A stretch of 51,517 nucleotides of DNA from an uncultured Chlorobiaceae bacterium (GCA_903866255.1 CAIPMW010000067.1:1-51517); one strand, 5' to 3'. Shown: positions 5,742-50,813, counted from the first letter of the stretch. The notes: a model not told the origin generated them from the sequence alone. Program-made: numbers and translations.

Positions 5742-5770
5742 AGGTTTTTATGCTGATCCATAGAAGAAGC

Positions 5771-5863: not shown

Positions 5864-5934
5864 AATTCAAAAATCAGCGGTTTTGGCGGATCAGTCTGAT
5901 TGTTTGTCAGGCATAAAACAGGAGAACATAAGAA

Positions 5935-6482: not shown

Positions 6483-6557
6483 TCGTACAGGTTTAAATCA
6501 TTGTTAATGCTATTAAATCATTTATAGATAATTAATTGGCTGATCTGTATAACAAGG

Positions 6558-6650: not shown

Positions 6651-6730
6651 CACCGAACAGTAGTGAAAATAATTCATGTAAACGCTTTACTTATTACGTT
6701 TTTTATTCGTTTTAACAGGAGGTATTTGCC

Positions 6731-7254: not shown

Positions 7255-7386
7255 CCAAATCACTTCACCTGACTGTCGGCTTCGCCGCCAGCAGGTCACC
7301 TTTTTGTTAGTGCTATACACTTATATCTGCTGCCAATGCGGCGGCAAAATTGTATCGCGCTGGAAATTGATAAAAGGAGGTCTCGG

Positions 7387-7599
7387 ATGAACATTACTGA
7401 ATTGAGGAAAATGAGCACTTCGGAACGATTGCAAGCCATGGAGGTACTTTGGGATAGCCGTTTATATGAAAATGATGCAGTCGAAACACCTGAGTGGCAT
7501 GAGAAAATACTTCAGGAAAGAAAAGAAAAAATTACAAGTGGGTGCGCAACATTCATCTCACTCGCCGATCTCAAAAAGAGTCGCTTCAAATGTGAATAA
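7387..7599 (+). CDS. Second addiction-module antitoxin
   Basis: Protein of 70 residues starting at ATG 7387 after AGGAGG. It belongs to the same short antitoxin family as the gene at 6731, with 'MSTSERLQAMEVLWDSRL' as the N-terminal helix and 'TPEWHEKILQERKEKI' in the middle. Its ParE-like partner directly downstream is only a fragment, so this antitoxin is probably orphaned. An upstream in-frame ATG at 7336 lacks a ribosome-binding site. Confidence 0.75.
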   Translation: MNITELRKMSTSERLQAMEVLWDSRLYENDAVETPEWHEKILQERKEKITSGCATFISLADLKKSRFKCE

Positions 7600-7727
7600 A
7601 TGATGTTTTCATATTGGATGAAGCAGTTGACGATTTGAATGAAGGCAAAGCATTTTACGACCTTCAGGCAACAGGTATTGGTGATTATTTCTGGGATTGT
7701 TTGACTTCAGGGAATTATGAAACGTAA
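7599..7727 (+). pseudogene. Truncated ParE-like toxin fragment
   Basis: A frame without a normal start codon reads 'NDVFILDEAVDDLNEGKAF' then 'YDLQATGIGDYFWDCLTS' and stops at 7725-7727. This is the N-terminal third of a ParE-like toxin, comparable with 'RPEAENDLRESFLWYEE' in the intact toxin at 6949. The codon before 'ND' is ATA, perhaps a former ATG. The rest of the toxin is missing: the PIN gene begins at 7717 inside the fragment. Deletion or replacement by the PIN module explains this best. Confidence 0.6.
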
Positions 7728-8199
7728 GGTCTACATCGAAACATCCGTCATCAGCTACCTGACGGCTCGGCCCAGCAAGACCATTCTCGGAGCGGCTCAC
7801 CAACAAATTACATTAGCCTGGTGGGAAACCCGCAGCCAGTACGACCTGGTTGTTTCTGAGTCGGTTTTACGTGAGTGCGGTGCTGGTGACCCAGATGCTG
7901 CAAAAAAGCGCCTGACTGTGTTGAATGATGTGCCCTTGATCTTGATAACCGAACAAGCACTCGATATTGCCAACTCGCTGGTAGCGAAGGGGATTATTCC
8001 AGCCAAGGCGGCTGAAGATGCGCTCCACATTGCAATTGCCACCGTCAATGGAGTTGATTATCTTCTGACGTGGAACTGTAGGCACATTGCAAATCCCGAG
8101 ATACAAAGAGGTATCGCTGCTCACCTTGATGATATTGGTTTGTCGCTGCCGTTCATTTGCACCCCCGAAGAACTACTTGGAGACGAAAATGTTGAATGA
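7717..8199 (+). CDS. PIN-domain protein, VapC-like toxin
   Basis: Protein of 160 residues with PIN-domain landmarks: 'VYIETSVISYLTARPS' at the N terminus (first acidic residue as Glu, common in this subgroup), 'VVSESVLREC' near 48, and 'AAEDALHIAIATVNGVDYLLTWNC' near 110-133 holding further acidic metal ligands. PIN proteins of this type are usually Mg-dependent RNases acting as TA toxins. The start overlaps the toxin fragment upstream, and the stop overlaps the partner gene's start at 8189. Confidence 0.85.
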   Translation: MKRKVYIETSVISYLTARPSKTILGAAHQQITLAWWETRSQYDLVVSESVLRECGAGDPDAAKKRLTVLNDVPLILITEQALDIANSLVAKGIIPAKAAEDALHIAIATVNGVDYLLTWNCRHIANPEIQRGIAAHLDDIGLSLPFICTPEELLGDENVE

Positions 8200-8392
8200 C
8201 GAAATCGTAGATGAAGTAAGAGCTATTCGTGATGCCCATGCAGCCAAATTTGGCTATGACTTGCAGGCTATCTATGCTGATTTGAAAAAGTCAGAAGCTG
8301 AACATATTGCGGCCGGTCATCCATTTATTCCTGCGCCTGAGTGCCCGGTGCCTGACACGGCATTGCAGTGGACTCGCTTCGCTCACCGCTGA
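8189..8392 (+). CDS. Putative antitoxin partner of the PIN protein
   Basis: Protein of 67 residues from ATG 8189, overlapping the PIN gene by 11 bases. The pattern 'DEIVDEVRAIRDAHAAKFGYDLQAIYADLKKSEAEH' is common in small proteins encoded next to PIN toxins of this subgroup. They are taken to be antitoxins, although here the toxin comes first. The last dozen residues (TALQWTRFAHR) look unlike the family and may come from a rearranged 3' end. Confidence 0.7.
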   Translation: MLNDEIVDEVRAIRDAHAAKFGYDLQAIYADLKKSEAEHIAAGHPFIPAPECPVPDTALQWTRFAHR

Positions 8393-8758
8393 ATTCAGAC
8401 GTTCGCAAGTACATCTATGGAATTTGCAGCACTCAAGCCAAGAGCCGAACACACAATTGTGCGATTCATCTCATTGCGGCAGTTGTGTTTCGTGAAAGTG
8501 CAAGACACACAGAAATCGAAGCAAGAGTAGTTTGCCAAAATAAAGATCCGGGAGAGCTTGAGAATATTTCCATATTCAGGGATTTTATTTGTCGTCAACA
8601 GATTAAATTTTACAAAGCCGAGATAAAAAAGTTCAAGCGAAAGGATAAAGGGTTCTCGTTGCTGTTTTAGGCAGTAAGGGTTCTCTATGCCAATTCTTTG
8701 ACGTTTCTTATGATTTATCCATGTATATTGAAAATGAAAATTTCAAATTGCATGGATT
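8393..8758 (+). other. Long gap before the AAA ATPase gene, no convincing gene
   Basis: About 366 bases. A frame at 8368-8670 (100 codons) is open, ends in a Lys-rich stretch 'KFYKAEIKKFKRKDKG', overlaps the preceding gene and resembles nothing I know. It may be debris. The last 90 bases are AT-rich and probably hold the promoter of the ATPase gene. No inverted repeat of note was found. Confidence 0.35.
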
Positions 8759-9922
8759 ATGAGCGTTCTCTATCTTGATCGCACAATAGCCGAGGATGTT
8801 CGGCTTGGGCTGAAAAACAACCCGGTTACGGCGGTTGTGGGGCCTCGACAGTGTGGCAAGTCTACCCTGATCAGGCATCTGGTCTCTTATGATCGGCCGT
8901 TCCTCTATCTTGATCTTGAACGTCCTTCCGATTTGCGGAAGCTCGATGACCCCGAATGGTTTTTGCAGCATCAGCGGGGAAAGCTGGTTTGCATCGACGA
9001 GGTGCAACGGCGGCCGGAGCTTTTTCCCCTGATTCGAAGTCTGGTGGACGAATGGGGTGGTAATGGTCATTTTCTGATTCTCGGATCGGCTTCACGTGAT
9101 CTGCTGATGCAGAGTTCCGAGTCGCTTGCCGGACGAATCACCTACAAGCGGTTGACTCCGTTTTTGTGGGAAAAGGTAAAGGAGCGGGTGATAATCGAGG
9201 AGTATCTTGCACGCGGAGGGTTTCCGAAAAGCCTGCTGCAGGAAGAGGAGCAGGTGTCGTTCGGATGGCGGGAGGATTTTATCACGAGCTTTCTTGAGCG
9301 TGATCTGTTGCAATGGAGCGGGTTCTCCCCGGCAACGATGCGTCGTCTCTGGCAGATGCTCGCTCACAATAACGGTCAGATGGTAAACCTCTCCTCCATT
9401 GGCGGTTCCCTTGGAGTAAGCCATACCACGGTAAGGAATTATCTTGATCTTTTACAACAGACCTTCATGGTGTGCCTGTTGCCGCCATTGATGTCGAATA
9501 TTGGTAAACGAGTTGTCAAATCGCCAAAGGTGTATGTGGCCGATACCGGTATTGTCGCCGCTTTGCTTGGGCTTGTTGATTTCAACCGGATTGCCGGGCA
9601 TCCGGTATTTGGCTCACTTTGGGAAACTCTGGTGATGATCAACATTCAGGGAATGTATCCGGGCTGCGGGCTTTATTATTATCGCACGGTCAACGGTGCC
9701 GAAGTGGATATCGTCATGGAGCAGTCGGGCAAGCGTTTTGCCATAGAGTGCAAGGCCTCCGCTGCTCCGGTTCTGACAAAGGGGAACCGGTCGGCAATTG
9801 TTGACATAGCCCCTCTACACACTTTTGTCGTGGCTCCTCTTGAGAAGGGGTATGCATTAGCGCCAGGCATCTCGGTTGTGGGTCTGTCGGAACTGCTCGA
9901 CGAGATCGGAAAGCTTCTGTGA
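8759..9922 (+). CDS. AAA ATPase with C-terminal DUF4143 domain
   Basis: Protein of 387 residues. The N-terminal AAA_14 domain has Walker A GPRQCGKST (residues 28-36) and Walker B LVCIDEVQ (76-83), followed by 'LILGSASRDL' (sensor region). A winged-helix-like part 'GGSLGVSHTTVRNYLDLL' lies near 222. The C-terminal DUF4143 domain contains 'AEVDIVMEQ..RFAIECKAS', the D-(x)n-ExK arrangement of a nuclease-like fold. The family is common, often in accessory regions, and its role is not established. Complete, with no frame problems. It converges on trpB2 across a strong hairpin. Confidence 0.88.
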   Translation: MSVLYLDRTIAEDVRLGLKNNPVTAVVGPRQCGKSTLIRHLVSYDRPFLYLDLERPSDLRKLDDPEWFLQHQRGKLVCIDEVQRRPELFPLIRSLVDEWGGNGHFLILGSASRDLLMQSSESLAGRITYKRLTPFLWEKVKERVIIEEYLARGGFPKSLLQEEEQVSFGWREDFITSFLERDLLQWSGFSPATMRRLWQMLAHNNGQMVNLSSIGGSLGVSHTTVRNYLDLLQQTFMVCLLPPLMSNIGKRVVKSPKVYVADTGIVAALLGLVDFNRIAGHPVFGSLWETLVMINIQGMYPGCGLYYYRTVNGAEVDIVMEQSGKRFAIECKASAAPVLTKGNRSAIVDIAPLHTFVVAPLEKGYALAPGISVVGLSELLDEIGKLL

Positions 9923-9999
9923 TTGTTTCTCATGGAGGGCGCGAAAGAGAGCGTGACAACCGAAAAGATAAAAGGTTCTCTTTGCGGTTTTAAACAACA

Positions 10000-10046
10000 C
10001 CCCGTTACTCTGTGCCTTGGTGAAAAGCACATCAAGAGTAACGGGG
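10000..10046. terminator. Strong hairpin between convergent genes
   Basis: Perfect 12-bp inverted repeat CCCCGTTACTCT (10000-10011) and AGAGTAACGGGG (10035-10046), followed on the plus strand by ATTTTGCTTTT. It sits between the ends of the AAA ATPase gene (plus) and trpB2 (minus). It fits an intrinsic terminator for the plus strand and probably stops readthrough both ways. Confidence 0.75.
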
Positions 10047-10055
10047 ATTTTGCTT

Positions 10056-11429
10056 TTACGCTTGCGGTGGAACCGGATGATCTTTCAGTACAGCAAGTGA
10101 GCGTTGCAGGAACTCTTCCGGTAGTCGGTAGTCACTGATTTTGCCGGACAAAAAGGCATCATATCCCTGGAGATCCATCAAGCCATGGCCTGACCAGTTC
10201 ATAAGAATCACCTTCTCTTTCCCCTCCTCCTTTGCTCGCTTCGCTTCACGGATGGTTTGTGCGATGGCGTGGGAGGTTTCAGGTGCCGGGATAAATCCTT
10301 CGGTATGAGCAAAGAGGAGAGCGGCTTCGTAGCACTCCGTCTGGGGGATAGCGGTGGCCTCAATCAATCCCAACTGTTTGACGTGGCTGACAAGGGGCGA
10401 CATGCCATGGTAGCGCAAGCCTCCTGCATGAATGGCCGGTGGAATAAATCCGTGGCCAAGGCTGTACATGGGCAGCAGCGGTGTCATTTTTGCCACATCA
10501 CCGTTGTCATAGACATAAGGTCCCCTCGTCAGGGTCGGGCAGGCTTCGGGCTCGGTGGCAATAATCTGAACCTCACGTCCATGGATTTTGTCGCAGATGA
10601 AGGGGAAGCTGATGCCTGCAAAGTTTGAACCTCCACCAGCACAGCCGATAACGATATCGGGATAGAGGCTCACCTTCTCAAGCTGTTTGCGGGCTTCAAG
10701 GCCGATAATGGTCTGATGCAGCATCACATGGTTTAAGACACTGCCAAGGGCGTAGCGGGTATCATCGCGTTGGACAGCCTGTTCAATGGCTTCGCTGATT
10801 GCAATGGCAAGGCTGCCCGGCGTGTCGGGTGTCTCCGCCAGAATTCGGCGTCCCGTCTCGGTTTGTGTGCTTGGGCTGGCAATGCACTCTGCCCCCCAGG
10901 TGTTCATCAAGATTTTGCGGAATGGCTTCTGGTCAAAGCTGATGCGCACCATAAAGACTTTACAGTCGATACCGACAAGTTTGCAGCTCATCGCAAGGGC
11001 GCTTCCCCACTGGCCGGCGCCGGTTTCAGTGACGAGATGCTTTATGCCAAACTGCTTGTTGTACCATGCCTGGGGTACAGCGGAATTGGGTTTGTGGCTT
11101 CCTGCCGGTGATACACCCTCATTTTTATAGAAGATTTTTGCCGGAGTCTTCAGGGCTGCTTCCAGTCGGTGGGCCCGGTACAGTGGTGAGGGGCGCCAGA
11201 GTTTCAGGATTGCCTGCACCTCCTGTGGAATTTCAATCCACCGCTCAGTGCTCATCTCCTGCTCAATAAGGTTCATCGGAAAAACTTTGGCAAGGGCATC
11301 AGGGCCGACAGGGTTGCCATCAGGCCCCAATGGTGGCGGCATCGGTGAAGGCAGGTCAGCCTGAATGTTGTACCACTGCCGTGGCATCTCATCCTCGCTT
11401 AACAGGATCTTTGTAAATTCCGAACTCAT
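10056..11429 (-). CDS. trpB2: Tryptophan synthase beta chain-like protein, TrpB2 type
   Basis: Protein of 457 residues, longer than classical TrpB (~400) and of the TrpB2 class that can act without the usual TrpA contact. It is a PLP enzyme joining indole and serine to make tryptophan. The PLP lysine lies in 'GSHKPNS' (Lys113). '[10 protein letters not shown]' follows near residue 155 and the glycine-rich phosphate loop '[11 protein letters not shown]' near 264. The N-terminal ~50-residue extension with 'MPPPLGPDG' is typical of TrpB2. No trpA is adjacent. Its role may be indole salvage or a second tryptophan synthase. Confidence 0.93.
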
Positions 11430-11490
11430 GATTCAATAAAGGTTTCGCTAATAAGATACCAGATGACAGGCAGGAAAGCTTGTACAAGGG

Positions 11491-11576
11491 TGCCGAAGAC
11501 GGGAATCGAACCCGTACGTCCATTGCTGAACACGGGATTTTAAGTCCCGGGCGTCTACCAGTTCCGCCACTTCGGC
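11491..11576 (-). tRNA. tRNA-Leu (UAA anticodon)
   Basis: On the minus strand the acceptor stem GCCGAAG pairs with CTTCGGC, leaving the discriminator A at 11491. The D-arm region GGCGGAACTGGTAGACGC and the T arm ACGGG-TTCGATT-CCCGT are typical of bacterial leucine tRNA. The anticodon stem CGGGA/TCCCG encloses loop CTTAAAA, giving anticodon UAA (plus-strand bases 11540-11542). A long variable arm makes it 86 bases. The CCA end is not encoded. Confidence 0.95.
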
Positions 11577-11679
11577 TTGCTGTCATGCTTTACAGGAGCA
11601 GCAATTTACTATCTTCGCTCTGTTTCCCAAAAAAATAAATGGTTCTTGCTTTGCCCATCTTCCACGGTAAAACTTGAGC

Positions 11680-12747
11680 TTATGCGCTGAAATGGTCGAA
11701 ACCCCTGATCGACTCCAGCGGAATACTCATGCCAAAGGTGTCTTCAAGAGTAATGCCAAGCTCCGGGGCAGTCATTTCACCGATCACTGAAATTGCTCTG
11801 TTGCCGGCTATTGACTGATAGCTCTCTTTCGATAGAGTGAAAAGCAACTGATAATCTTCACCTCCGGTGAGAGCCCAGGTGAGGGCATCTTCCTGCAGTT
11901 CATCGGCTATTCGACGCGTGTTTTCATGGATTGGCAACAGCTTTTCATGAAGAAGAGCCCCTGTCTTTGAGTGGCGGCAGAGATGCTGAAGGTCAGAGCT
12001 GAGCCCGTCGGAGATGTCGATCATCGACGTGGGGCGAATATTGTGGTCATGGAAGAGTCGGACAATATCGATGCGGGCGAAGGGAAGCAGTTGTGCCCGG
12101 ATAGCTTCGCTGTACTCCTGCAGCTCTCCGATTGCGCTCTTGGCATAGGGTTCATTGTTTTCGAGATGGTTCAGCATAATCTCTTTTTCACGCATAAGGA
12201 GTTTCAGTCCAGCGGCTGCACCTCCAAGAGTGCCGGTAACGCAGATCACATCGCCTGGTTTGGCACCGCTTCTGCGGGTCACCCGCTCGGGAGATACCTC
12301 TCCAACCATGGCGACTGAAATGACCAGGCCTGAACGGGAAGAGGAGGTGTCTCCACCCGCGATAGCAAGGCCATATTTTTGTGCAGCATCACTGATGCCT
12401 GCGTAAAGCTCCTCGATCATGGTAATCAGGAATGATGCCGGCACGGCAAGTGAGATCAGGGCATAGCGGGGCAGGCCATTCATGGCGCAGATATCCGAGA
12501 CATTGACACTGATTGCCTTGCTTCCGAGGTGTTTGAGCGGGGTAGTCAAGAGATCGAAGTGTACCTGCTCGGCCAAAATATCTGTCGTCGATACTTGCAG
12601 CAGCTCTGCTGAGAGGCGGTAAACGGCGCAGTCATCACCGATTCCGGTCAAGAGTGAGGGGAGAGCTGTCAGGGTTGGTGCAACAAGAGTGGCGATAGTA
12701 TCAATCAGACCAAATTCTCCGATTGCAGTGATAGCTTTAAATGGCAT
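11680..12747 (-). CDS. thiL: Thiamine-monophosphate kinase
   Basis: Protein of 355 residues that phosphorylates thiamine monophosphate to the active cofactor thiamine diphosphate. Family landmarks: 'GEFGLIDTIA' near the N terminus, 'GIGDDCAV' (the first Asp pair binding Mg-ATP), 'NVSDICAMNG' (the second metal motif), 'GGDTSSS' and 'MIDISDGLSSDL'. I chose ATG 12747 (MPFKAITAI) over an upstream in-frame start at 12810, whose extra 21 residues do not belong to the family. It is divergent from ftsY, with ~110 bases for both promoters. Confidence 0.94.
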   Translation of the reverse strand: MPFKAITAIGEFGLIDTIATLVAPTLTALPSLLTGIGDDCAVYRLSAELLQVSTTDILAEQVHFDLLTTPLKHLGSKAISVNVSDICAMNGLPRYALISLAVPASFLITMIEELYAGISDAAQKYGLAIAGGDTSSSRSGLVISVAMVGEVSPERVTRRSGAKPGDVICVTGTLGGAAAGLKLLMREKEIMLNHLENNEPYAKSAIGELQEYSEAIRAQLLPFARIDIVRLFHDHNIRPTSMIDISDGLSSDLQHLCRHSKTGALLHEKLLPIHENTRRIADELQEDALTWALTGGEDYQLLFTLSKESYQSIAGNRAISVIGEMTAPELGITLEDTFGMSIPLESIRGFDHFSA

Positions 12748-12857
12748 ATTTTTGAGTAAATTGCGTTTTATATCAGGTTGTACTATCTGGCACTTTCGTA
12801 GCAGGAGCACTGATGAGGTGCAACTCTTCTTGATAACAGTGACAATATCTGCTTTTT

Positions 12858-13811
12858 ATGGGTTTTTTTGACAAGTTCAAATTTACAAAGCTTAAAGAGG
12901 GGCTCGAAAAAACCCGGGATACCCTTCGTGAAAAGCTTTCTGTTATTACAAAAGGCAAAACAGAGATCGATGACGAGTTCCTTGAGGAGCTTGAGACGAT
13001 TCTTGTTGGAGCAGATGTCGGGGTCGAGACCACGCTCGGGATTGTTGATGCCATCACCGAAAGGGCTAAAAAGGAGACTTACCACTCCGAAGGTGAGCTG
13101 AACAAGATGTTGATGGAGGAGATTCAGCAGATGCTTGAGGAGACGGGAGAGGATCATCCCCTGGATTTTGACGCGTCGCTTCCGGCCAAACCTTATGTTA
13201 TTTTGATTGTCGGCGTGAATGGCGCCGGCAAGACCACGAGTGTTGCCAAGTTGGCCCATAATTACGATAAGGCCGGAAAAAAGGTGATTATTGCCGCTGC
13301 TGATACCTTCAGGGCCGCAGCCTATGAACAGCTTCAGATATGGGCCGACAGGGCAGGTGTTCCCATGATCGGCCAGGCCCAGGGTTCCGATCCCGCTTCG
13401 GTTGTGTACGACGCTGTCAGCGCTGCGGTTTCCAGGAATGCCGATGTGGTGCTGGTTGATACGGCGGGGCGATTGCATAACAAAAGCCACCTGATGGAGG
13501 AGCTGGCCAAGATAATGCGTGTCGCCAAGAAGAGGATTCCTGAGGCTCCGCATGAGGTATTGCTGGTGCTTGATGGTACGACCGGACAGAACGCTGTGCA
13601 GCAGGCAAGGGAATTTACCAAGTTTGTTCATGTGACAGGGCTTGTGGTGACCAAGCTTGATGGAACCTCCAAAGGGGGGATTGTTCTCTCTATTTCGCGT
13701 GAACTGAAGTTGCCGGTCAAGTATATCGGTGTCGGAGAAAAAATCGATGACCTTCAGTTGTTTGACCGAGCGGAGTTTGTTGCCGCACTGCTTGGCAGAG
13801 AGTCAAAGTGA
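12858..13811 (+). CDS. ftsY: Signal recognition particle receptor FtsY
   Basis: Protein of 317 residues, the SRP-receptor GTPase that docks ribosome-SRP complexes at the membrane. It has a short N domain (helices to about residue 100) and a G domain with G1 GVNGAGKTT (119-127), '[11 protein letters not shown]', G3 'DTAGR', G4 'TKLDG' and the closing 'GVGEKIDDL'. The acidic A domain of enterobacterial FtsY is absent, as in many bacteria. The start MGFFDKFKF is standard. It ends 3 bases before the end of the convergent DUF123 gene. Confidence 0.97.
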
Positions 13812-13814
13812 CGT

Positions 13815-14390
13815 TCAGGTATGTATAATAGCGGGTATTTGGGTGTGAAGAACTTCAAGTATTCGCTTCTGGTTGGTCAGTTTCAGGATGTGTGTACTGG
13901 TTTTCGTATCCTGGGCACCGAGGCGCGGGGCAATCAGAGATGTCTCATCCAGTTGTTCAAGCAGCTCAGCCAGCTTCTGCTCTATTCTCAACGGACTGCG
14001 AATCAGGACGATATGCGTTATTTCAGCTTCAGGAAGGTCAAGCAGATAATCGATATGCCATCGAAGTTTTTTTGGTGATGGATTAATGTCTCCGGTGCCC
14101 ATAACGTTTTTTTCGGAGAAGAGATTCAGCATGGTCTCCCGTATTCTGTGGTGAGGTTTTCCCCCTGATCGTGAGGTGTGGCGGATAACCCTTCGAGCAA
14201 GAGGAGAGCCTGATTTACTTTCACCAAGCGCTGACCCGATGTAGATGTAGTCACCTTGGGGTATCGTGAACAGTTTTCCTTGCTGAAATCTGCCGAATGC
14301 AAGCTGTACAGATTCTGAGAGATGAGTGAGCAGGAGATATGAGCCCATGCGGTTGTTATTGCCAAAAAGAGTAAACTCAGAACTGGCCAT
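13815..14390 (-). CDS. DUF123 / GIY-YIG-like endonuclease family protein
   Basis: Protein of 191 residues from ATG 14390 (MASSEFTLF); an in-frame start at 14444 would add 18 unlikely residues. 'GSYLLLTHLSESVQLAFGR' and 'GDYIYIGSALG' match DUF123, a GIY-YIG relative (the latter segment is the Y-x-GSA motif). 'KLRWHIDYLL' and 'ITHIVLI' follow, as in the family. These proteins are thought to be small nucleases, but the role is not established. Convergent with ftsY. Confidence 0.82.
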   Translation of the reverse strand: MASSEFTLFGNNNRMGSYLLLTHLSESVQLAFGRFQQGKLFTIPQGDYIYIGSALGESKSGSPLARRVIRHTSRSGGKPHHRIRETMLNLFSEKNVMGTGDINPSPKKLRWHIDYLLDLPEAEITHIVLIRSPLRIEQKLAELLEQLDETSLIAPRLGAQDTKTSTHILKLTNQKRILEVLHTQIPAIIHT

Positions 14391-14579
14391 TGTTTTTTGT
14401 TGTTTTTGATGCAATATTAGCCCCTCAGGCGAGGGGGTGGACATCTTCTGTCGTTGGCTGAAATATATGCCTGTAGTGATTGATATTTTGTCGATGTACA
14501 GGTTTTTTTTGAACGGATCGAAAGAGGCGGTATAAGCCCGCTTTCACAACAACACAATTAATGATAAAGGGATAAATCT

Positions 14580-16679
14580 ATGGCATTAATGTCGAATTTG
14601 CGGAATAAAACTCATATAATACTGTACACTCTTCTGGGCTCCTTTCTTGCGCTTATTGTTTTTGAATGGGGTATGAATTTTAGCGGCTTTTCCGGTAAAG
14701 CCAATATGGCGGGAAAAGTTAATGGCAAGTCAATTTCCTTCAGTCAGTATGATGATGTGTATAAGGCGGTTACTGATAATTTCAGAAGAGGCAATCCCGG
14801 TGCGGAGCTGACACCCGAGACGGAACTCGGGCTTCATGAGCAGGCCTGGAATACAGTGGTTGACCAGACCTTGCTTGAACAGCAATTTGAGAAATTCGGT
14901 ATTTCGCTTCAGGATCAGGAAGTGGTGGAGGCCTTCGATAGTCCAAATCCACCTATGGTTATTCGCCAGAATTTTTCTGATTCTACGGGGATTATTGATC
15001 GAAAAAAATTGGAAAGTGCCCGCAGTGATCCTCGTAGCAAGGAGTTGTGGTTGCAGCTTGAGAAAATTGTCCGCCAGGAGTTGAAGGTCAATAAACTGAT
15101 CCGCTCTCTTCAAACCCTTGCCCATGTTACTGAGCCGGAGATTGGTGAAATTGTCAGCAGGCAGTTTTCACATTTTTCCGCTTCATTTATTCCTGTTCCG
15201 TTGAGTTTTGCAGGAGCCGATGCCCAATTCGCTGTTAAAGATGATGACATAAAAAAATATTTTGACGGGCATAAAGAGCTGTTCAGGCAGGTGCCAACCC
15301 GAAAAGCTGATTATGTCTTTTTTCCCTTGATTCCTTCGTCGAAAGACAGTCTTGCGGTTCGTACTGAACTCGAAACACTTCGGAGCGATTTTTCAAGCTC
15401 GGTCAATGACAATGATTTTGTTCAAAAGCAGAGTGATCGACCTACAGGCAGTAATGTTACCTACACTCGTGCCGATTTTTCACCGCTTGCCAGTACCGCA
15501 ATTTTTAATGCGGCAAATCTCAAGACCGGGGCTATTGTCGGGCCTGTTGCTGACCGTGGGGAATACAGGTTACTCAAGGTCAGGCAGGTTACCACATCGC
15601 CTCAACCCATTGCCCGTGCCTCACATATTCTTTTGCGGTTCAATCCCGCCAGCAGGGATGAAATTCAAAAGGTGCGGGAGTTGTCAATGTTGATTTATAA
15701 GCAGATTCAGGCTGGAGTTCCTTTTGATGTATTGGCAAAAAAATATTCTGCTGATATAGCCAGTGCTGCAAACGGTGGTGATGTCGGGTGGTTCAGCAAA
15801 GATCGTATGGTTCCAGCCTTTTCAGCGGCGGTGTTCAGTGCTCGTCCAGGTGCTGTTGTTGGCCCTGTGCAGACACAGTTTGGGCTTCATATCATCAAAG
15901 TGACTGGTTTTGATCAGAGTGCTGTCGTCTGTTCAGAGATTATCAGAAATATCAGGCCATCATCTGAAACCGTTGACAGTGAGCGTCGTCGGGCTACAGC
16001 ATTTCAGCTCAATGCGAAACAAAACGGTTTCGACAAGAGTGCTGCAAGCGCAAAGCTGCGTATCGACAAGACCGGTGAATTTGGCAGGCGGACCCCAGTT
16101 ACCCAGATTGGCTACAGTGATAAAATAGCCACCTATGCATTTAAAGCTGGTGAAGGTGATCTTTCCGATGTGCTTGAAACCGAAAAAGGGTTTTATGTGA
16201 TGCGTCTGACCAGTAAAAATGATACAGGATATCGTCTGCTCGATCAGGAGCTCAAGGGAATTGTGACTACGGAACTTTTACGCGAGAAGAGAGCCGCTTT
16301 TCTGGAGAAAAAGCTTTCAGGGATGGCTAAGGGCCCTGGCGTGACGCTTGAAAAGATTGCATCAAATATTGGCATTAAAGTTGTTACTGCCGACAGTATT
16401 TGGTGGCGCGACGGGGCCATCCCTGGCTATGGAGCTGATCGAGCTCTTGCAGAAGCCATATCAGGGCTGGTTCCCGGCAAGCTTTCAGCGCCGGTGAAAA
16501 CGAATGATGGTTATGCTCTTGTTGTGCTGAAGCAGAAAAGCCTTCCTGCTGGAATTAATCTGAAAGTTGAAAAAGCAGGCATCGCACAGCAACTGCTGCG
16601 GGCGAAACAGGAGCAGCTTTTTGGGGAATATTTTGCATCCCTTCGCAAAAACTCGAAAATCGAGGATTTGCGTCCCTGA
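14580..16679 (+). CDS. ppiD: PpiD/SurA-type periplasmic folding factor (peptidyl-prolyl isomerase)
   Basis: Protein of 699 residues. A single N-terminal membrane anchor 'IILYTLLGSFLALIVFEWG' (about 13-31) is followed by a SurA_N-like domain with 'VNGKSISFSQYDDVYK' and 'LLEQQFEKFGI', as in PpiD. A parvulin rotamase domain starts near residue 344: 'ASHILLRFNP', then 'GGDVGWFSKDRMVPAFSAAVF' and 'FGLHIIKV'. A second, degenerate rotamase-like stretch follows ('GFYVMRLTS'). PpiD acts in the periplasm at the exit of the Sec channel. Symbol by family resemblance. Confidence 0.88.
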   Translation: MALMSNLRNKTHIILYTLLGSFLALIVFEWGMNFSGFSGKANMAGKVNGKSISFSQYDDVYKAVTDNFRRGNPGAELTPETELGLHEQAWNTVVDQTLLEQQFEKFGISLQDQEVVEAFDSPNPPMVIRQNFSDSTGIIDRKKLESARSDPRSKELWLQLEKIVRQELKVNKLIRSLQTLAHVTEPEIGEIVSRQFSHFSASFIPVPLSFAGADAQFAVKDDDIKKYFDGHKELFRQVPTRKADYVFFPLIPSSKDSLAVRTELETLRSDFSSSVNDNDFVQKQSDRPTGSNVTYTRADFSPLASTAIFNAANLKTGAIVGPVADRGEYRLLKVRQVTTSPQPIARASHILLRFNPASRDEIQKVRELSMLIYKQIQAGVPFDVLAKKYSADIASAANGGDVGWFSKDRMVPAFSAAVFSARPGAVVGPVQTQFGLHIIKVTGFDQSAVVCSEIIRNIRPSSETVDSERRRATAFQLNAKQNGFDKSAASAKLRIDKTGEFGRRTPVTQIGYSDKIATYAFKAGEGDLSDVLETEKGFYVMRLTSKNDTGYRLLDQELKGIVTTELLREKRAAFLEKKLSGMAKGPGVTLEKIASNIGIKVVTADSIWWRDGAIPGYGADRALAEAISGLVPGKLSAPVKTNDGYALVVLKQKSLPAGINLKVEKAGIAQQLLRAKQEQLFGEYFASLRKNSKIEDLRP

Positions 16680-44367: not shown

Positions 44368-44422
44368 CCTGCGTCGTCATTTCTTTGATCAGCCACATTT
44401 CAATTGAACAGGAGTGACAATA

Positions 44423-44668
44423 ATGACACCGAAGATGCAGACCGTCACGCTTCATGATGCCGAAACCCGACTTGCCCAACTGGTTGAACAGGCAGCTCGT
44501 GGTGAAGCTTTTATTATCAGCAAGGCAGGGCGACCAATGGTTAAGGTGATCCCATTCGATACCACCATTGGCAACGCCCGGCAGTTTGGTTTTATGGCAG
44601 GCGAGATTTCTGTTCCTGAAGATTTTGACCGTATGGGCAGTAACGAGATTGCTGCATTGTTTGTTTGA
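44423..44668 (+). CDS. Orphan Phd/YefM-type antitoxin
   Basis: Protein of 81 residues from ATG 44423, 8 bases after AGGAG; a GTG at 44414 would add three residues. 'VTLHDAETRLAQLVEQAARGEAFIISKAGRPMVKVIP' is the DNA- and toxin-binding pattern of prevent-host-death antitoxins. They are normally followed at once by a PIN or Doc toxin. Here the next gene, 33 bases on, is the DGR target protein, so the toxin has been lost or replaced. Confidence 0.85.
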   Translation: MTPKMQTVTLHDAETRLAQLVEQAARGEAFIISKAGRPMVKVIPFDTTIGNARQFGFMAGEISVPEDFDRMGSNEIAALFV

Positions 44669-44701: not shown

Positions 44702-46591
44702 ATGCTTAAAAAAATCCTGACAAGAATCACTGACCGTAACCTATGGCCCCGCAACTGGTGGTATCCTGGGCCCAAAAAGGATAACCGTCATGCTGATGTG
44801 GTCAAGATGCTGCATGAGAGCCATTCAAAAGCGATCAATAAAACCATGCTCTCGCTGCTTGGTGTCGGCTTGTACAGTCTGCTGGCGGTGGTTGGCTCAC
44901 CCGACAAGTCGCTGATTGCCACCAACAGCTCCATTCAAACACCACTGGTTGGCACCTCAATCTCTTTTCAGGGTTTTCTGATTGTCTCGCCCTTTCTTCT
45001 TGTCATCCTGACCGTCTATCTTCACATCCTGTATGGCAAATGGCTGCGGCTTGAAACAAAGCGAGAAGATCTGAACAAAGAGCCAGCGAACGCCGGTGAG
45101 CCAACCATTGAGAGTGTTCCAGCCATTTTCAGTTTTAGCGACCGTCTGCCCCGGTTTGTCACCACCTTTATCTTTTACTGGTTTGTGCCGTTGATCTTGT
45201 GCGTCATGGCCTCCAAGGCGTTCGCTCTCAAAGAGTTGATTCGCCCTATGTTTTATGTCGCCTCTGTCGTGACACTTGCTCTTCTTTTTTTGCGGATTAA
45301 TCGTTGTCCCGAAAGGAAACGGTTCTGGCGAAATGCTCCGCGCTGGATACTTCTCGCACTGCTTGTTGCGTTTATGGGTTATTTTCCCTCTGTTTCCGAC
45401 TCATTCCGCAGGCCACTGAATCTCCAGCGGGAAGATCTTCATGAAGCCTGGCTGCAAGGGCTGGATTTGACCGGCGCTGATATGAGTAATGCCAATCTGA
45501 AAGGGGCAAACCTCAGCGGTGCTATTCTTCAAAAAGCACATCTTGATGAAGCCAATTTGCTCGATGCTGATCTCAGAACGGCAAAACTTCAGGCTGCCTC
45601 CCTTAACAAAGCCAATCTTCAGAAAGCAAAGCTGACCTTCGCCGATTTTGAGGAAGCCGACCTCACGTTAGCGACTTTTACTGGTGCGACTCTCCAGAAT
45701 ACCAATTTTCAGAGTGCTGATATCAGGTATGCCAATTTCAGGGATTTCGTAAAAGAAGGAGAGTTTGATTCCCATCGGCTCAAATATGCCCAAAATTGGG
45801 AAAAGGCGTTTTACAGCAGTGAGTTGCTTGCAGCTCTCAAGCTGCCAAAAAGCCACAATGATGACCTGAACAAGGATTGGGACAAAACGTATGCTGAAGT
45901 GGAGCACTATCAATCGGAGAATAGTTTTCAAAACCTTCTCAAGGCAGGGTATCGAGTGGTTGAGCATCACGTCAAAAAGAATTTTCAAATGGTTAAGCGT
46001 TGGTTGAATATCGATGATAAGGGTACGGTTCCTGTCGTGGATGTTGGTGATGAGTATGGCGGCGGGATAGTTGCTTATCTCTTCCAGCCAGGCGACAAGG
46101 GTTACAATAAAAATAAACAGCATGGGCTGATTGCTGCCAAATCAGATATCCAGATCAATTACACCGATGCGTGGGGCTATGGGGATCAAAAGGATTCTTT
46201 TCGATGGAGCACGGGAGAAACGGGAAAAGAGGGTAACGCTGATTATGCCTGGCAGGAACTTCTCAACACCAGTACACGGTTAGGTGAAGGTGCGGCCAAT
46301 ACTGATAAAATATTGGCGAAGTATCCGTCGGAAAAGTATCCCTATACTGCGGCGGCAGTGGCGAGAGCATATCGTGGCGGAGGTTTTGATGACTGGTATT
46401 TGCCGAGCAAAAGGGAACTTAATAAGCTTTTTTACGTCAAAAGTGCTGTTGGCGGTTTTTCTGACGGCGGCTACTGGAGTTCTACGGAGAGCGGTGCGGT
46501 CGGCGCGTGGAACCAGTACTTCTACATTGGCAGCCAGGGCGGCAGCAGCAAGGACCACGCATGGCGAGTTCGGGCTGTGCGGGCTTTTTAA
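44702..46591 (+). CDS. DGR target 1: membrane protein with pentapeptide repeats and variable C-terminal domain
   Basis: Protein of 629 residues. About five hydrophobic spans lie in residues 38-225 (for example 'GFLIVSPFLLVILTVYLHIL', 'FVTTFIFYWFVPLILCVMA', 'WILLALLVAFMGYF'). Pentapeptide repeats (A(D/N)LxxA type: 'GADMSNANLKGANLSGAIL') run from about 258 to 345. A helical linker leads to a DUF1566/C-type-lectin-like domain from about 440 ('VGDEYGGGIVAYLF', 'HGLIAAKSD', 'FDDWYLPSKRELNKLF'), ending in VR1 (residues 581-629) with 'WRVRAVRAF' at the C terminus. Placement at the head of the retroelement makes it the main diversified product. The ligand is unknown. Confidence 0.88.
   Translation: MLKKILTRITDRNLWPRNWWYPGPKKDNRHADVVKMLHESHSKAINKTMLSLLGVGLYSLLAVVGSPDKSLIATNSSIQTPLVGTSISFQGFLIVSPFLLVILTVYLHILYGKWLRLETKREDLNKEPANAGEPTIESVPAIFSFSDRLPRFVTTFIFYWFVPLILCVMASKAFALKELIRPMFYVASVVTLALLFLRINRCPERKRFWRNAPRWILLALLVAFMGYFPSVSDSFRRPLNLQREDLHEAWLQGLDLTGADMSNANLKGANLSGAILQKAHLDEANLLDADLRTAKLQAASLNKANLQKAKLTFADFEEADLTLATFTGATLQNTNFQSADIRYANFRDFVKEGEFDSHRLKYAQNWEKAFYSSELLAALKLPKSHNDDLNKDWDKTYAEVEHYQSENSFQNLLKAGYRVVEHHVKKNFQMVKRWLNIDDKGTVPVVDVGDEYGGGIVAYLFQPGDKGYNKNKQHGLIAAKSDIQINYTDAWGYGDQKDSFRWSTGETGKEGNADYAWQELLNTSTRLGEGAANTDKILAKYPSEKYPYTAAAVARAYRGGGFDDWYLPSKRELNKLFYVKSAVGGFSDGGYWSSTESGAVGAWNQYFYIGSQGGSSKDHAWRVRAVRAF
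46442..46588 (+). repeat. DGR variable repeat VR1
   Basis: 147 bases at the 3' end of target gene 1, colinear with the template repeat at 47164-47310. By hand alignment, 24 of the template's 47 adenines are replaced (by G, T or C) and every other base is identical, except one G-to-C difference in the second-last codon. The unchanged 3' part, ending GCTGTGCGGG, would be the initiation-of-mutagenic-homing region. Most template AAC codons have become Gly, Ser, Tyr, Val, Asp or His. Confidence 0.95.
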
Positions 46592-46623
46592 CCATTTATC
46601 TATTCAACAATTAAGGGGGTACC

Positions 46624-46638
46624 GGGGGCAGCGCCCCC
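46624..46638. other. DGR hairpin downstream of VR1
   Basis: Stem GGGGGC/GCCCCC with loop AGC, beginning 35 bases after the end of VR1. It has no T-run behind it, so it is not a terminator. An equivalent hairpin with a different loop follows VR2 at the same distance. In the Bordetella phage DGR a hairpin or cruciform just behind the VR is needed for efficient target recognition; a like role is inferred. Confidence 0.65.
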
Positions 46639-46659
46639 AGTCAAAAAATATTTTGGATT

Positions 46660-47013
46660 ATGGCGCTTTACTATGATTTACCAGTGTATCGTGATGTCTA
46701 TCGTCTGATCCTGAAAATCGTTGAGTACACCAAAGATTTTCCACGTGAGTACAAATACTCGCTTGGCCAGGATCTAAAGCACGACAGTATTGTGCTGGTG
46801 CGCAGCATCTACAGGGCCAACAAAGCCAAAAGCAAGACCGAGTATCTTGAAGTATTTCTTGACGATTTTGAAATCCTTAAACTGGAGGTGCGCTTATGTG
46901 TTGACCTGAAAATTCTGCCCATGAAAAAGCAGGCCGAGATTACCGGTCTCATGGATGGAATTGGTAAACAAATTACCGGATGGCGTAATGCCGGGTCGGT
47001 GAAAGGTGCCTGA
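46660..47013 (+). CDS. avd: DGR accessory variability determinant (four-helix bundle)
   Basis: Protein of 117 residues, helical throughout: 'YYDLPVYRDVYRLILKIVEYTKDFPREYKYSLGQDLK' then 'SIVLVRSIYRANKAKSKTEYLEVFLDDFEILKLEVRLCVDL' and a last helix with 'IGKQITGW'. This matches Avd/four-helix-bundle proteins, basic pentamers that bind the reverse transcriptase and template RNA and are needed for mutagenic homing. Place between VR1 and the template repeat is the same as in the Bordetella phage element. A shortened second copy lies at 50652. Confidence 0.92.
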   Translation: MALYYDLPVYRDVYRLILKIVEYTKDFPREYKYSLGQDLKHDSIVLVRSIYRANKAKSKTEYLEVFLDDFEILKLEVRLCVDLKILPMKKQAEITGLMDGIGKQITGWRNAGSVKGA

Positions 47014-47163
47014 ATTCCGTCGGTCAAGGCTGTCGGAAGCGAGCAGAGCTTCGTTCAAAAGCGGCAAAGAGACTGTGTGCCGATCAGTGAAACTTCAAGA
47101 TCGGGGGGCAGTAAAAGAAAATGTATCGGAAACGCTTTTGGTGCATGTCAACATCTTTGCGAG

Positions 47164-47310
47164 AGTGCTGTTGGCGGTTTTTCTGACAACAACTACTGGA
47201 GTTCTACGGAGAACGATGCAAACAACGCGTGGAACCAGAACTTCAACAATGGCAACCAGAACAACAACAACAAGAACAACACATGGCGAGTTCGGGCTGT
47301 GCGGGGTTTT
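47164..47310 (+). repeat. DGR template repeat (TR)
   Basis: 147 bases, non-varying master copy for the variable repeats. In the VR frame it reads as 49 codons with 15 AAC and one AAT, the usual adenine-rich design giving maximal diversity when A is mutated. It begins AGTGCTGTTGGCGG and ends GTGCGGGGTTTT. It lies 150 bases behind avd and 51 before the RT start. The stretch 47014-47163 between avd and TR holds no gene and is probably part of the template RNA, which is transcribed with flanks. Confidence 0.95.
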
Positions 47311-47361
47311 GAACAAGCAGTTGTATCGCCCGGATGGAATTATCTCTGGGCGGTATGCATT

Positions 47362-48621
47362 ATGACGGACAACACATCGTTGCAACTCGAATTGTTTCCC
47401 TTTTCAGCCCCAATTCCTCTTGTTGATCTTTTTGAGGCTTATGAAGGCTGTCGCCGACACAAGCGAAATACGGTCAATGCCATAGCTTTTGAACTCGACT
47501 ATGAACAAAATCTTGTTGAGCTTTGTTACGAAATTAATAATGGCAGTTACCAGCCGGGGAAGTCAATCGCCTTTATTGTTGAGCGACCAGTCAAGCGTGA
47601 AATATTTGCCGCTGACTTTCGTGACCGCGTTGTTCATCACCTCATCATCAATAAACTGAATGCCCTTTTTGAAAAAGAGTTTATTGGCGACAGTTACTCT
47701 TGCCGGAAAGGAAAAGGTACGCATAAAGGAATAAAGCGTCTGGATGGCTTTATCCGCCAGTGCTCACAAAACTATAGCCGCGACTGCTGGATTTTAAAGC
47801 TTGATATCAAAGGCTTTTTCATGAGCATCGATCGTCAGCGTCTTTACTATCGTCTGGAACTGTTCATCAATAATAATTATCACGCTCCTGATCGTCCTCT
47901 CCTGCTCGATCTTTGTCGAAAAGTGGTTTTTTACGATCCTGCAGCTAATTGTATTATCAAAGGGAAACGCTCAAACTGGAAGGGCTTGCCTGACGACAAA
48001 AGTCTTTTTCACTCTCGCCCGGGATGCGGCTTACCCATTGGCAACCTGACCAGCCAGGTGTTTGCCAACTTCTACCTTAACTCGTTTGATCATTTTATGA
48101 AACACACCCTTGGGTTGCGATACTATGGTCGTTACGTTGATGATGGAGTTGCGGTACATCAGAATCCTGTTTTTCTGAACTCATTGCTGCCAGTCATTCG
48201 TGCTTATCTGCAGCAGGAGCTTGGGTTGATACTGCATCCAAAAAAAATATTTCTTGAGCATTACACCCGGGGAGTCAAGTATCTTGGAGTTGTTATCAAG
48301 CCTCGCAGAATTTATGTCGCCAACCGTACAAAAGGCAATATGTACCGCGCTCTTTTAAAGTATAACCGGATAGCGCAAACGCATAAACCCTGGCATGCCG
48401 AGCGTACAGCCTTCCAGAGCAGTATCAACTCCTATCTCGGCTTGATGAAACATTATCATACATACTCCCTCCGTCGTTCCATGTTGCGCAAGCATCTTTC
48501 GCCCTGGTGGCTGAGGCTGGCCAAGGCAAATGCCCGGCTTGAAAAATTCACGCTCAAAATAAGGCCGCGCCGGTCAAAGAGAGGTCGATTCTCGAAAAAG
48601 CAACGGCTCAAGCGTGTATGA
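47362..48621 (+). CDS. DGR reverse transcriptase
   Basis: Protein of 419 residues from ATG 47362 (MTDNTSLQL). It copies the template RNA with errors at adenines. RT motifs: 'LKLDIKGFF' with the first catalytic Asp at 148, 'LPIGNLTSQVFANFYLN' (from 224, the [L/I]GxxxSQ motif typical of DGR enzymes) and 'YVDD' (258-261). It ends in an unusually basic tail 'RPRRSKRGRFSKKQRLKR'. No maturase or endonuclease domain, so not a group II intron RT. The frame is open upstream through the whole TR to 47077. Confidence 0.95.
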   Translation: MTDNTSLQLELFPFSAPIPLVDLFEAYEGCRRHKRNTVNAIAFELDYEQNLVELCYEINNGSYQPGKSIAFIVERPVKREIFAADFRDRVVHHLIINKLNALFEKEFIGDSYSCRKGKGTHKGIKRLDGFIRQCSQNYSRDCWILKLDIKGFFMSIDRQRLYYRLELFINNNYHAPDRPLLLDLCRKVVFYDPAANCIIKGKRSNWKGLPDDKSLFHSRPGCGLPIGNLTSQVFANFYLNSFDHFMKHTLGLRYYGRYVDDGVAVHQNPVFLNSLLPVIRAYLQQELGLILHPKKIFLEHYTRGVKYLGVVIKPRRIYVANRTKGNMYRALLKYNRIAQTHKPWHAERTAFQSSINSYLGLMKHYHTYSLRRSMLRKHLSPWWLRLAKANARLEKFTLKIRPRRSKRGRFSKKQRLKRV

Positions 48622-48648: not shown

Positions 48649-48843
48649 ATGAAAAGGGAGCAAACTCCATGCTCCTTGGCTTTTTGGAATGCTATATTAA
48701 GGATTCCACCGGCAAATCGTCTTGGAAAGCTCTCGGGTAAAAACAAAGATTTTTACAGCATAGGGATTAACGATCAATGGAGAATCATCTTCAAATGGGC
48801 AGACGGAAATGCCTCCGAAGCAGAAATTATTGACTATCACTGA
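48649..48843 (+). CDS. HigB-type toxin, N-terminally shortened
   Basis: Protein of 64 residues with the C-terminal two thirds of HigB/RelE toxins: 'IPPANRLGKLSGKNKDFYSIGINDQWRIIFKW' then 'EIIDYH'. Intact family members have ~92 residues; the first ~35 (two helices) are replaced by an unrelated 'MKREQTPCSLAFWNA'. It is probably inactive, although the mRNA-binding strands and terminal His remain. One base separates its stop from the start of higA. It begins 27 bases after the RT stop. Confidence 0.65.
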   Translation: MKREQTPCSLAFWNAILRIPPANRLGKLSGKNKDFYSIGINDQWRIIFKWADGNASEAEIIDYH

Positions 48844-48844
48844 A

Positions 48845-49147
48845 ATGAACGAACTCAGAAATATTCATCCGGGAGAGGTCTTGATGGAGGAGTTTTTAAT
48901 TCCACTGGAGATCTCTGCGTACCGGCTTTCCAAAGATATCGGGATTCCTCAGACCCGGATATCCGGGATAGTGAAAGGGAAGAGACGTGTTACCGCTGAC
49001 ACGGCATTGCGCCTTTCACAATATTTTGGTAATTCCGCAAAGTTCTGGTTAGGTCTGCAAGATGACTATGACCTTGAGGAGGGGATGCAGATCAAGAGAG
49101 AAGCAATACATTCTATTCTTCGCTACAAGAGCAGCATGATGGCATAA
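48845..49147 (+). CDS. higA: HigA-type antitoxin
   Basis: Protein of 100 residues from ATG 48845 (MNELRNIHPG). 'IHPGEVLMEEFLIPLEISAYRLSKDIGIPQTRISGIVKGKRRVTADTALRLSQYFG' is the HigA/VapI helix-turn-helix pattern, followed by 'FWLGLQDDYDL'. It looks intact and complete. A longer in-frame start at 48809 lies inside the toxin gene and is unlikely. As it can bind DNA it may still regulate this locus even if the toxin is dead. Confidence 0.9.
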   Translation: MNELRNIHPGEVLMEEFLIPLEISAYRLSKDIGIPQTRISGIVKGKRRVTADTALRLSQYFGNSAKFWLGLQDDYDLEEGMQIKREAIHSILRYKSSMMA

Positions 49148-49220: not shown

Positions 49221-50543
49221 ATGCCCGATATTTTTATCAGCTACGCCCACGAGGATCAGGAGCGTATCAGGCCAATAGTTCAAGAGCTTGAAAAACGTTG
49301 GAGTGTTTTTTGGGACAAAAAGATTCCGCCAGGGAAAACATGGGAGGACTCCATTGGCAAAGCGTTGGAAGAGTCGCCCTGTGTTCTTGTTGTCTGGTCG
49401 CACTCTTCTGTAAAGTCAGATTGGGTTAAAGAGGAGGCGGACGTGGCCAAGAAAAGGGATACTTTTGTGCCTCTTTTTCTTGACAAGGTTGAACCGCCAA
49501 TGGGATTTCGGAGGATTCATGCAGCGGATCTCTCTGACTGGAAAAACAACAACGCTCATCAGGGATTTCAGTTACTCATTGGCGCGATTGAATCCAAAAT
49601 TTCTCCTGCAACACAGCCTGTTACAGACTCCCGACCGGTGTCAATGCCGGACACGGTTTCATTAGAGGGTGCCGGGCACACATCACCACAACGCAAGCCG
49701 GAGCGGCAACCGATTGGAAACGTAAGCTGGGTTCAAAAAAACCAGCTTGTAATAGTTGTTGCTGTAGTGATGCTGGTTATACTTGGCGTTGTCTGGAGTA
49801 TGAAACAGCCACAGTCAAAAGTTGAACCTAAACCTGCGCCCATCGCTGAGGTAGTAAAAGGAAATCCTGAGGCAGAAGCCCCTCGAAAAGCGGAGGCGGC
49901 ACGGTTGAAGGCAGAGCAAGATGCGGCCACTCGTCGTGAAGCTGAAGCCGCAAAGGCAAGGCAAGATGCAGATGCTCGTCGAAAAGCGGAGGATGCGCGT
50001 TTGGCTGCGGCGAAAGATGCTGTATCTCGTCGTGCAGCAGAAGCCGCAAAGGCAAAGCAGGACGCAGAAGCTCTTCGAAAAGAAGAAGCTCGGTTGAAGG
50101 CAGAGAAAGATGTGGCTCGTCGCGAGGCGAAAGCAAAGGAAAAGTTGGACGCAGATGCTCGCCGCGAAGCGGCAGTGGTAAAGTCTCGACAAGAAGCCGA
50201 AGCGAAAAAAACGCTTAAAATCGGTGACGAATATGGAGGTGGAAAAATTTTCTCGCTCGATCCTACAGGCCAGCACGGACTGATTGCGGCGAAAGCGGAT
50301 TTATCAGGTCACTCTGAGGGTAAATCTGAAGGGCGGTTTACATGGGAAGATGCGAAAGCAAAATGCGCAGCCCTCGGTGGTGGGTGGCGTTTGCCGAGTA
50401 AAAGTGAACTCAATGACCCTTATCACGCTAAAAGTGCTGTTGGCGGTTTTTCCGGCGGCGGCTACTGGAGTTCTACGGAGGACAGTGCGGATGGCGCCTG
50501 GGCGTCAGTACTTCGGCAGTGGCTACCAGGGCAACGACGGTAA
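49221..50543 (+). CDS. DGR target 2: TIR - transmembrane - coiled coil - DUF1566 receptor-like protein (frameshifted end)
   Basis: Protein of 440 residues. The TIR domain (1-130) starts 'PDIFISYAHEDQERIRPIV', has 'CVLVVWSHSSVKSDWVKEEADVA' with Glu71 at the position of the NADase catalytic Glu, then 'FVPLFLD'. A single span 'LVIVVAVVMLVILGVVW' lies at about 175-193 with basic residues before it (N-terminus inside). Residues ~210-330 are an Ala/Lys/Glu/Arg coiled coil, TolA-like. From 332 comes a DUF1566-like domain ('KIGDEYGGGKIF', 'QHGLIAAKAD', 'GGGWRLPSKSEL') ending in VR2. An extra base near 50502-50505 shifts the frame; without it the protein would run to 50583 and end in VRAVRAF like target 1. 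Confidence 0.9.
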   Translation: MPDIFISYAHEDQERIRPIVQELEKRWSVFWDKKIPPGKTWEDSIGKALEESPCVLVVWSHSSVKSDWVKEEADVAKKRDTFVPLFLDKVEPPMGFRRIHAADLSDWKNNNAHQGFQLLIGAIESKISPATQPVTDSRPVSMPDTVSLEGAGHTSPQRKPERQPIGNVSWVQKNQLVIVVAVVMLVILGVVWSMKQPQSKVEPKPAPIAEVVKGNPEAEAPRKAEAARLKAEQDAATRREAEAAKARQDADARRKAEDARLAAAKDAVSRRAAEAAKAKQDAEALRKEEARLKAEKDVARREAKAKEKLDADARREAAVVKSRQEAEAKKTLKIGDEYGGGKIFSLDPTGQHGLIAAKADLSGHSEGKSEGRFTWEDAKAKCAALGGGWRLPSKSELNDPYHAKSAVGGFSGGGYWSSTEDSADGAWASVLRQWLPGQRR

Positions 50544-50580
50544 GAGTTTCGGGGGGTGTGTTCGGGCGGTGCGGGCTTTT
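50433..50580 (+). repeat. DGR variable repeat VR2, diverged and frameshifted
   Basis: 148 bases at the end of the TIR gene aligning with the template over its full length, with one inserted base at about 50502-50505 (TGGGCGTCAG against TGGAACCAG). Many template adenines differ, but so do about ten other bases (for example TCT/TCC, GCG/GCC, TGGCGA/GGGTGT near the 3' end). The 3' end GTGCGGGCTTTTTAA matches VR1. It is an old or poorly served target rather than a freshly diversified one. Confidence 0.88.
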
Positions 50581-50615
50581 TAACCATTTATCTATTCAAC
50601 AATTAAGGGGGTACC

Positions 50616-50630
50616 GGGGGCAAAGCCCCC
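50616..50630. other. DGR hairpin downstream of VR2
   Basis: Stem GGGGGC/GCCCCC with loop AAA, 35 bases behind VR2, matching the VR1 hairpin in stem and position but with a different loop. The flanking ~90 bases are nearly the same as those behind VR1, so both descend from one duplicated segment. Confidence 0.65.
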
Positions 50631-50651: not shown

Positions 50652-50813
50652 ATGGTGCTCTACTATGATTTCAACGTCATCTGTTGTCTGATCCTGAAAA
50701 TCGTTGAGTACACCAAAGATTTCCCGCAAAAGTACAAATCCATTCTTGGTCAGGAACTCAAGCAAGATCGCCCGAGAGTGTACAATTTTGCCATACATGG
50801 GGATAAAAAGTGA
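50652..50813 (+). pseudogene. Truncated second copy of avd
   Basis: ATG at 50652 opens 53 codons. The first ~39 follow avd closely ('LILKIVEYTKDFP' identical; 'YKSILGQELKQD' against 'YKYSLGQDLKHD'), with a two-codon deletion near codon 10. After codon 39 the sequence switches to an unrelated 'RPRVYNFAIHGDKK' and stops. Two thirds of Avd are missing, so it cannot form the four-helix bundle. It shows a second DGR cassette once followed VR2. Confidence 0.85.

Follow-up and report, generated by a model that had tools for sequence, protein, structure and literature searches.

Genes of the locus

The window, by which we mean the whole 51,517-nt stretch of DNA analysed here, corresponds to contig C67 in the genome of an uncultured Chlorobiaceae bacterium; this genome amounts to 2.8 Mb at 99% completeness. 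Positions 44702-48621 hold the complete core of a diversity-generating retroelement (DGR), in which a target gene with VR1, the avd gene, the template repeat (TR) and the reverse transcriptase (RT) gene follow one another; all DGR features given below are on the plus strand. This order had been read from the sequence alone as that of the Bordetella phage BPP-1 element, and the BPP-1 record likewise shows mtd/VR1, avd, TR and brt. The same sequence-only reading had confined the DGR to 44702-48621: the core parts are indeed found there, but these limits are too narrow, since the element runs on to about 50.8 kb.

For the context of the locus, ORFs were inspected from 38 kb of the window onward. 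Fumarate hydratase-like and carboxylase-like genes lie upstream. The DGR core has pieces of toxin-antitoxin systems on both sides. A Phd/YefM antitoxin lies upstream (44414-44668), and between the RT gene and a second target gene stand a HigB-like toxin fragment and an HTH antitoxin (48649-49147, plus strand; HigB-like_toxin 2.9e-13, covering profile positions 45-91 only; HTH_3 5.6e-8). The HigB-like/HTH pair is probably a passenger, outside the DGR mechanism.

Target 1 (44702-46591) encodes a protein of 629 aa, for which transmembrane segments are predicted in the N-terminal part and which has pentapeptide repeats (Pfam Pentapeptide, 1.3e-22) and a C-terminal Lcl_C domain of the C-type lectin kind (1e-8, barely over the gathering threshold). 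By hydropathy, four transmembrane segments are clear and a fifth is probable (about 212-231), in agreement with the proposal that the diversified product is a cellular membrane protein. Judging from hydropathy and positive loops, its N-terminus would face inside, and the pentapeptide repeats and lectin domain outside. Modelling of the 184-aa Lcl_C domain of the window itself gave low confidence (pLDDT 40). The fold was tested on the homologous 119-aa Lcl_C domain from the TIR target of a relative, G063, for which the model (pLDDT 94.7) matches the C-terminal domain of Legionella Lcl (8q4e, Z 18.5) and, at Z 9-12, C-type lectins. By this modelling, the VR domain family has a C-type lectin fold. 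The VR is found where DGRs carry it, in a lectin-type domain at the 3′ end of the gene that is diversified.

The Avd-like gene suspected between the repeats is present at 46660-47013. Its 117-aa product matches Pfam bAvd (6.6e-18), PHROG 'Avd protein of DGR' (5e-22) and the NCBIfam equivalog DivGenRetAVD (1.1e-17, under the curated cut-off of that model), and we regard it as the Avd accessory protein of a BPP-1-type DGR.

The RT gene (47362-48621, ATG start) encodes 419 aa (RVT_1 1.6e-18) and contains both motifs pointed out earlier, LPIGNLTSQ and YVDD. The best solved relative is 8ub7 (3.6e-31), which we take to be the BPP-1 reverse transcriptase; group II enzymes come far behind. A maximum-likelihood tree of 35 RTs, which has some long branches and was used solely to separate DGR from group II and retron RTs, joins the window RT and BPP-1 Brt in one clade (99/99 support); the RTs of group II introns (99/96) and of retrons (100/100) lie outside it. 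RT phylogeny had been proposed as a check on the assignment, and it places the enzyme among DGR RTs rather than with retrons or group II introns. Orthologous RTs of the same genus are 91-94% identical in several genomes, 80-81% in three more and 68% in another; the named genomes among them are uncultured (lake) Chlorobiaceae and Chlorobium phaeovibrioides BrKhr17, which has a related DGR cassette with avd-TR-RT and a VR. Outside the genus, the nearest named RTs are those of Legionella shakespearei (57% identity) and of a Symbiothrix genome (51%).

Further DGR-like material is carried by the same genome (G000). Separate loci of FGE type lie within C43:1-20000 (L132), mainly at 1300-15100 on the minus strand, with two RTs (VPIGNLTSQ, YMDD), two HRDC-domain genes, seven related 168-nt repeats and FGE-sulfatase targets, among them a 1053-aa NACHT-FGE protein. 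Two of the repeats, 12955-13122 and 14733-14900, differ at A only across their matched core. The window RT groups apart from these FGE/HRDC-type RTs in the 35-RT tree. A solitary 364-aa RT on contig C9 (L131:5295-6389), with LPIGNLTSQ and YVDD, occurs in several genomes of the genus and falls on the DGR side of the tree. Two remote VR candidates of the genome, C87:71112 and C43:44999, have 18-29 non-A mismatches and were set aside as ordinary Lcl_C paralogues.

The repeats and their 3′ ends

The two colinear repeats noticed at the outset are real and extend over 151 nt at an offset of 722 nt, the 147 nt first reported being contained inside. Their placement is also as described: VR1 (46442-46592) closes the 629-aa gene and the TR (47164-47314) stands directly before the RT gene. 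The two copies are 83% identical. Among their 26 mismatches, 24 fall on adenines of the TR (19 A>G, 4 A>T and 1 A>C), and the remaining two are constant G differences at the 3′ edge. Over positions 1-138, the 24/24 mismatches are located on the 47 adenines (chance P = 3.7e-14), so that differences upstream of the IMH are restricted to TR adenines, as is the rule in DGRs. The mutated span observed in VR1 is 46466-46559. The TR is made of AAC and AAT codons, AAC being frequent; its 25 variable codons, corresponding to 25 mutable codons in VR1, could specify about 10^24.7 proteins, and one of them can turn into a stop.

The 3′ end of VR1 is IMH-like (GTTCGGGCTGTGCGGGCTTTTTAAC, 46568-46592) and differs from the TR at 46584 and 46589 only. 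The same two differences (GGGC..TTTTTAA vs GGGG..TTTTGAA) recur in all TR/VR1 pairs whose 3′ ends are complete. IMH is therefore unlike IMH*, which is the unidirectional 3′ marker of a DGR.

Downstream of VR1 lies a perfect GC inverted repeat, GGGGGC-AGC-GCCCCC (46624-46638), a candidate for the DGR target hairpin or cruciform which is absent after the TR. Its counterpart following VR2, the third repeat copy described below, is GGGGGC-AAA-GCCCCC (50616-50630). Such an inverted repeat stands about 31 nt past the VR end in most VRs of the genus, with a variable loop and a conserved stem, and at the corresponding place after the TR it was found in no TR of the genus. The presence of a GC hairpin past the VR but not past the TR is that of BPP-1-type elements. 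BPP-1 requires a hairpin/cruciform after its VR, with an optimum of 8-10 bp for the stem and 4 nt for the loop (PMC3240598). The hairpin after VR1, with a 6-bp stem and a 3-nt loop, is smaller than this optimum, a point which, like the frameshift of VR2 and the low-confidence model of the window's own Lcl_C domain, counts against our best explanation; the stem is 6 bp in the group of the window and 8-9 bp in several others.

A second structure, a stem-loop at 47321-47358 with a 14-pair helix, lies between the TR and the start of the RT gene, and is a candidate structured part of the TR RNA. Across 9 distinct sequences, 94.4% of cells are paired, and 2 pairs have changed on both sides, which provides moderate evidence that a structured element is conserved after the TR.

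A second target and decay of the element

The second target gene (49221-50543) encodes an N-terminal TIR domain (TIR_2 1.9e-24), a transmembrane segment, a charged, coiled-coil-type repeat region and an Lcl_C domain that carries VR2. Intact relatives exist in G063 and G055. VR2, recognized by repeat comparison, occupies 50433-50584, and a +1 nt insertion within it breaks the reading frame of target 2. It is followed by what remains of an avd copy, a piece of its 5′ end (50652-50767; direct repeat families D1 and D5). Because of the frameshifted second target and this remnant, the element is larger than first delimited and partly decayed. The impression that all its parts are intact thus does not hold: the TIR-VR2 gene is both out of frame and mismatched to the resident TR.

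Excluding adenines, VR2 has 11 mismatches to the resident TR and 1 to the TR of G063; because of these counts, we conclude that it was last written by a G063-type TR, before the resident TR changed or was replaced. Genomes with a G063-type TR carry an in-frame VR2 (G073, G063 and G055) or a frameshifted one (G084), and the relatives with the resident IMH type, G069 and G060, have no working VR2.

All three VRs of G084 (L034) are out of frame, with indels of 1-2 nt, each at an A-run of its TR. Slippage of the RT is a possible cause of the frameshifts in VR2 of the window and in the VRs of G084, where the indels (1-2 nt) all fall at A-runs; some 36 further VR copies, however, stay in frame. Assembly error at a hypervariable site is another possible explanation of these indels.

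Other relatives illustrate both the range of targets and the loss of the machinery. VRs of this family stand at the ends of membrane proteins of the pentapeptide kind, of TIR proteins (some with a transmembrane segment, others lacking one), of a Ser/Thr protein kinase (Pkinase 9.5e-55) and of a DUF5018 protein that looks secreted. In G077 (L135) and G052 (L043), the Ser/Thr protein kinase has a transmembrane segment and a C-terminal Lcl_C domain closing in the VR. The RT of G055 (L042) has an internal deletion of about 580 bp, equivalent to 47341-47924 of the window, and its VRs persist. In G052, the DGR core is deleted (the end of avd, the TR and the RT N-terminus are gone) and the VR-bearing targets remain.

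Signs of homing in related species and proposed mechanism

Seven genomes, in which neither TR nor VR1 has gaps, were used to follow how VR1 tracks the TR at the 20 columns that are not A in any TR and that differ between TRs. VR1 is identical to the TR of its own species in 140/140 cells (20 informative non-A columns × 7 genomes), and when TRs and VRs were re-paired in 5000 permutations, the observed tracking was never reached. Upstream of the IMH, the non-A mismatches of the window VR1 number 0 against its own TR and 5-16 against the other TRs. The 3′ limit of transfer would lie in the CGGG at 47302-47305, because tracking reaches TR position 138 (47301) and position 143 (47306) differs always.

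Target 1 orthologues in G083, G055 and G069 are 95, 91 and 90% identical over the protein body, whereas identity at the mutable VR codons is 21, 11 and 26%; the other VR residues are 93% identical. An invariant VR1 had been named as a result that would speak against this reading, and across species the opposite is seen, with 11-26% identity at mutable codons against 90-95% in the body. Non-A tracking combined with scatter at A sites points to repeated mutagenic homing in each lineage, not to ordinary gene conversion. Recent homing in each lineage is strongly supported by these comparisons, even if not observed directly. The suggestion that the element is probably active is accordingly likely to be right, in the sense that TR tracking and orthologue divergence indicate an apparently active DGR, one that has run recently in each related species.

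The same pattern might have been left by a DGR that died recently, VR1 preserving an old A-only pattern with no new homing. VR2 and its gene have decayed in the window, and VRs persist in G055 and G052 after internal deletion of the RT and loss of the core. We nevertheless consider this improbable: avd and RT are both full length in the window, the RT keeps the conserved residues of four aligned relatives (67-95% identity), and VR1 shows no non-A mismatch to its own TR though sister TRs differ by 5-16. Much less probable still, with ORFs inspected from 38 kb onward, is a prophage locus diversifying a phage adhesin. RTs related to that of the window do occur among viral-collection contigs and phage records (at most 57% and 45%, respectively), but fumarate hydratase-like and carboxylase-like genes lie upstream and, instead of tail proteins, the targets are proteins of TIR, kinase and pentapeptide type; moreover both flanks of the locus are conserved in sister species, as befits the chromosomal DGR proposed from the start. 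Finally, repeats often evolve in concert through recombination, and the targets at the locus have clearly recombined, but ordinary gene conversion keeping TR and VR alike, with diversity arising from selection and not from the RT, would remove A and non-A differences equally where we find 24/24 on A and 20 non-A columns that track, so that the A-only pattern already refutes it unless another adenine-specific mutator exists, and we give it next to no credence.

We are highly confident that the locus is a DGR on the chromosome of a green sulfur bacterium related to Chlorobium, homing from the TR into VR1 and formerly also into VR2. The parts, the A-only pattern, the TR tracking and the lectin fold of the family come from the analyses above; the biochemistry that follows is borrowed from BPP-1 by homology. 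The RT, together with Avd, would copy an RNA containing the TR and misread template adenines at high frequency. The cDNA would then replace VR1 from the IMH upstream, the IMH being located beside the GC hairpin. The last about 50 codons of the membrane-anchored target 1 would in this way gain new residues on the ligand face of the lectin. The element would also have served the TIR-TM-coiled-coil-lectin target through VR2, which in this genome is out of frame and no longer matches the resident TR. Recognition of surface ligands, be it of phage, neighbours or other antigens, is the probable role of the diversified domains, and the TIR targets might convert recognition into NAD-linked effector action. 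As a more speculative extension, which we hold to be possible rather than likely, one TR family might feed a set of Chlorobium transmembrane receptors, in which outer hypervariable lectin heads are combined with TIR, Ser/Thr-kinase or pentapeptide modules and surface recognition is linked to TIR-type effector action; individual receptors would be retired once the IMH of the VR no longer matches the TR, as may be the case for VR2.

The system resembles the BPP-1 DGR (mtd, avd, TR, brt) in the VR-avd-TR-RT order, A-only differences and Avd, and also in the IMH/IMH* asymmetry, the hairpin after the VR and the lectin-fold target. It is unlike BPP-1 in being chromosomal, in having more than one target, these being cellular membrane and TIR proteins, and in its short 6-bp hairpin stem. 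The majority of cellular DGR targets are membrane-anchored (PMC8144416). With Legionella Lcl and the Legionella DGR relatives it shares the RT lineage and the Lcl C-terminal lectin domain, although its host belongs to a different phylum. Clade 5 DGRs of multicellular bacteria have targets with TIR, CHAT, NACHT or FGE (PMC10907252). As in clade 5, a diversified lectin domain is fused to immune-type effector domains, TIR included; the differences are that the window RT groups apart from the FGE/HRDC-type RTs of its own genome, that Avd is used and that the targets are Lcl_C proteins with transmembrane segments.

Chlorobium phaeobacteroides and Pelodictyon phaeoclathratiforme belong to the same bacterial family as the host of the window. 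In a list of 2012, DGRs are entered for C. phaeobacteroides DSM 266 (2 VRs) and P. phaeoclathratiforme BU-1 (4 VRs), one VR of the latter lying outside any coding region (PMC3521204). They share with our element multiple VRs, one of them without an intact reading frame. Since DGRs of Chlorobium and Pelodictyon and TIR targets are already published, the DGR of the window is not a new kind of system; it adds a well-documented example, and the range of sensor-like proteins that it serves is unusually rich. Sister species with near-identical cassettes provide a natural series: drift of the TR is passed on to the VR, and adenine positions scatter. From sequence alone, one can therefore date homing and place its 3′ limit to within about 4 nt. 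With the diversified lectin domain joined to domains of TIR and kinase type, a part in immunity or recognition could be put to the test in green sulfur bacteria that can be cultured, C. phaeovibrioides BrKhr17 among them.
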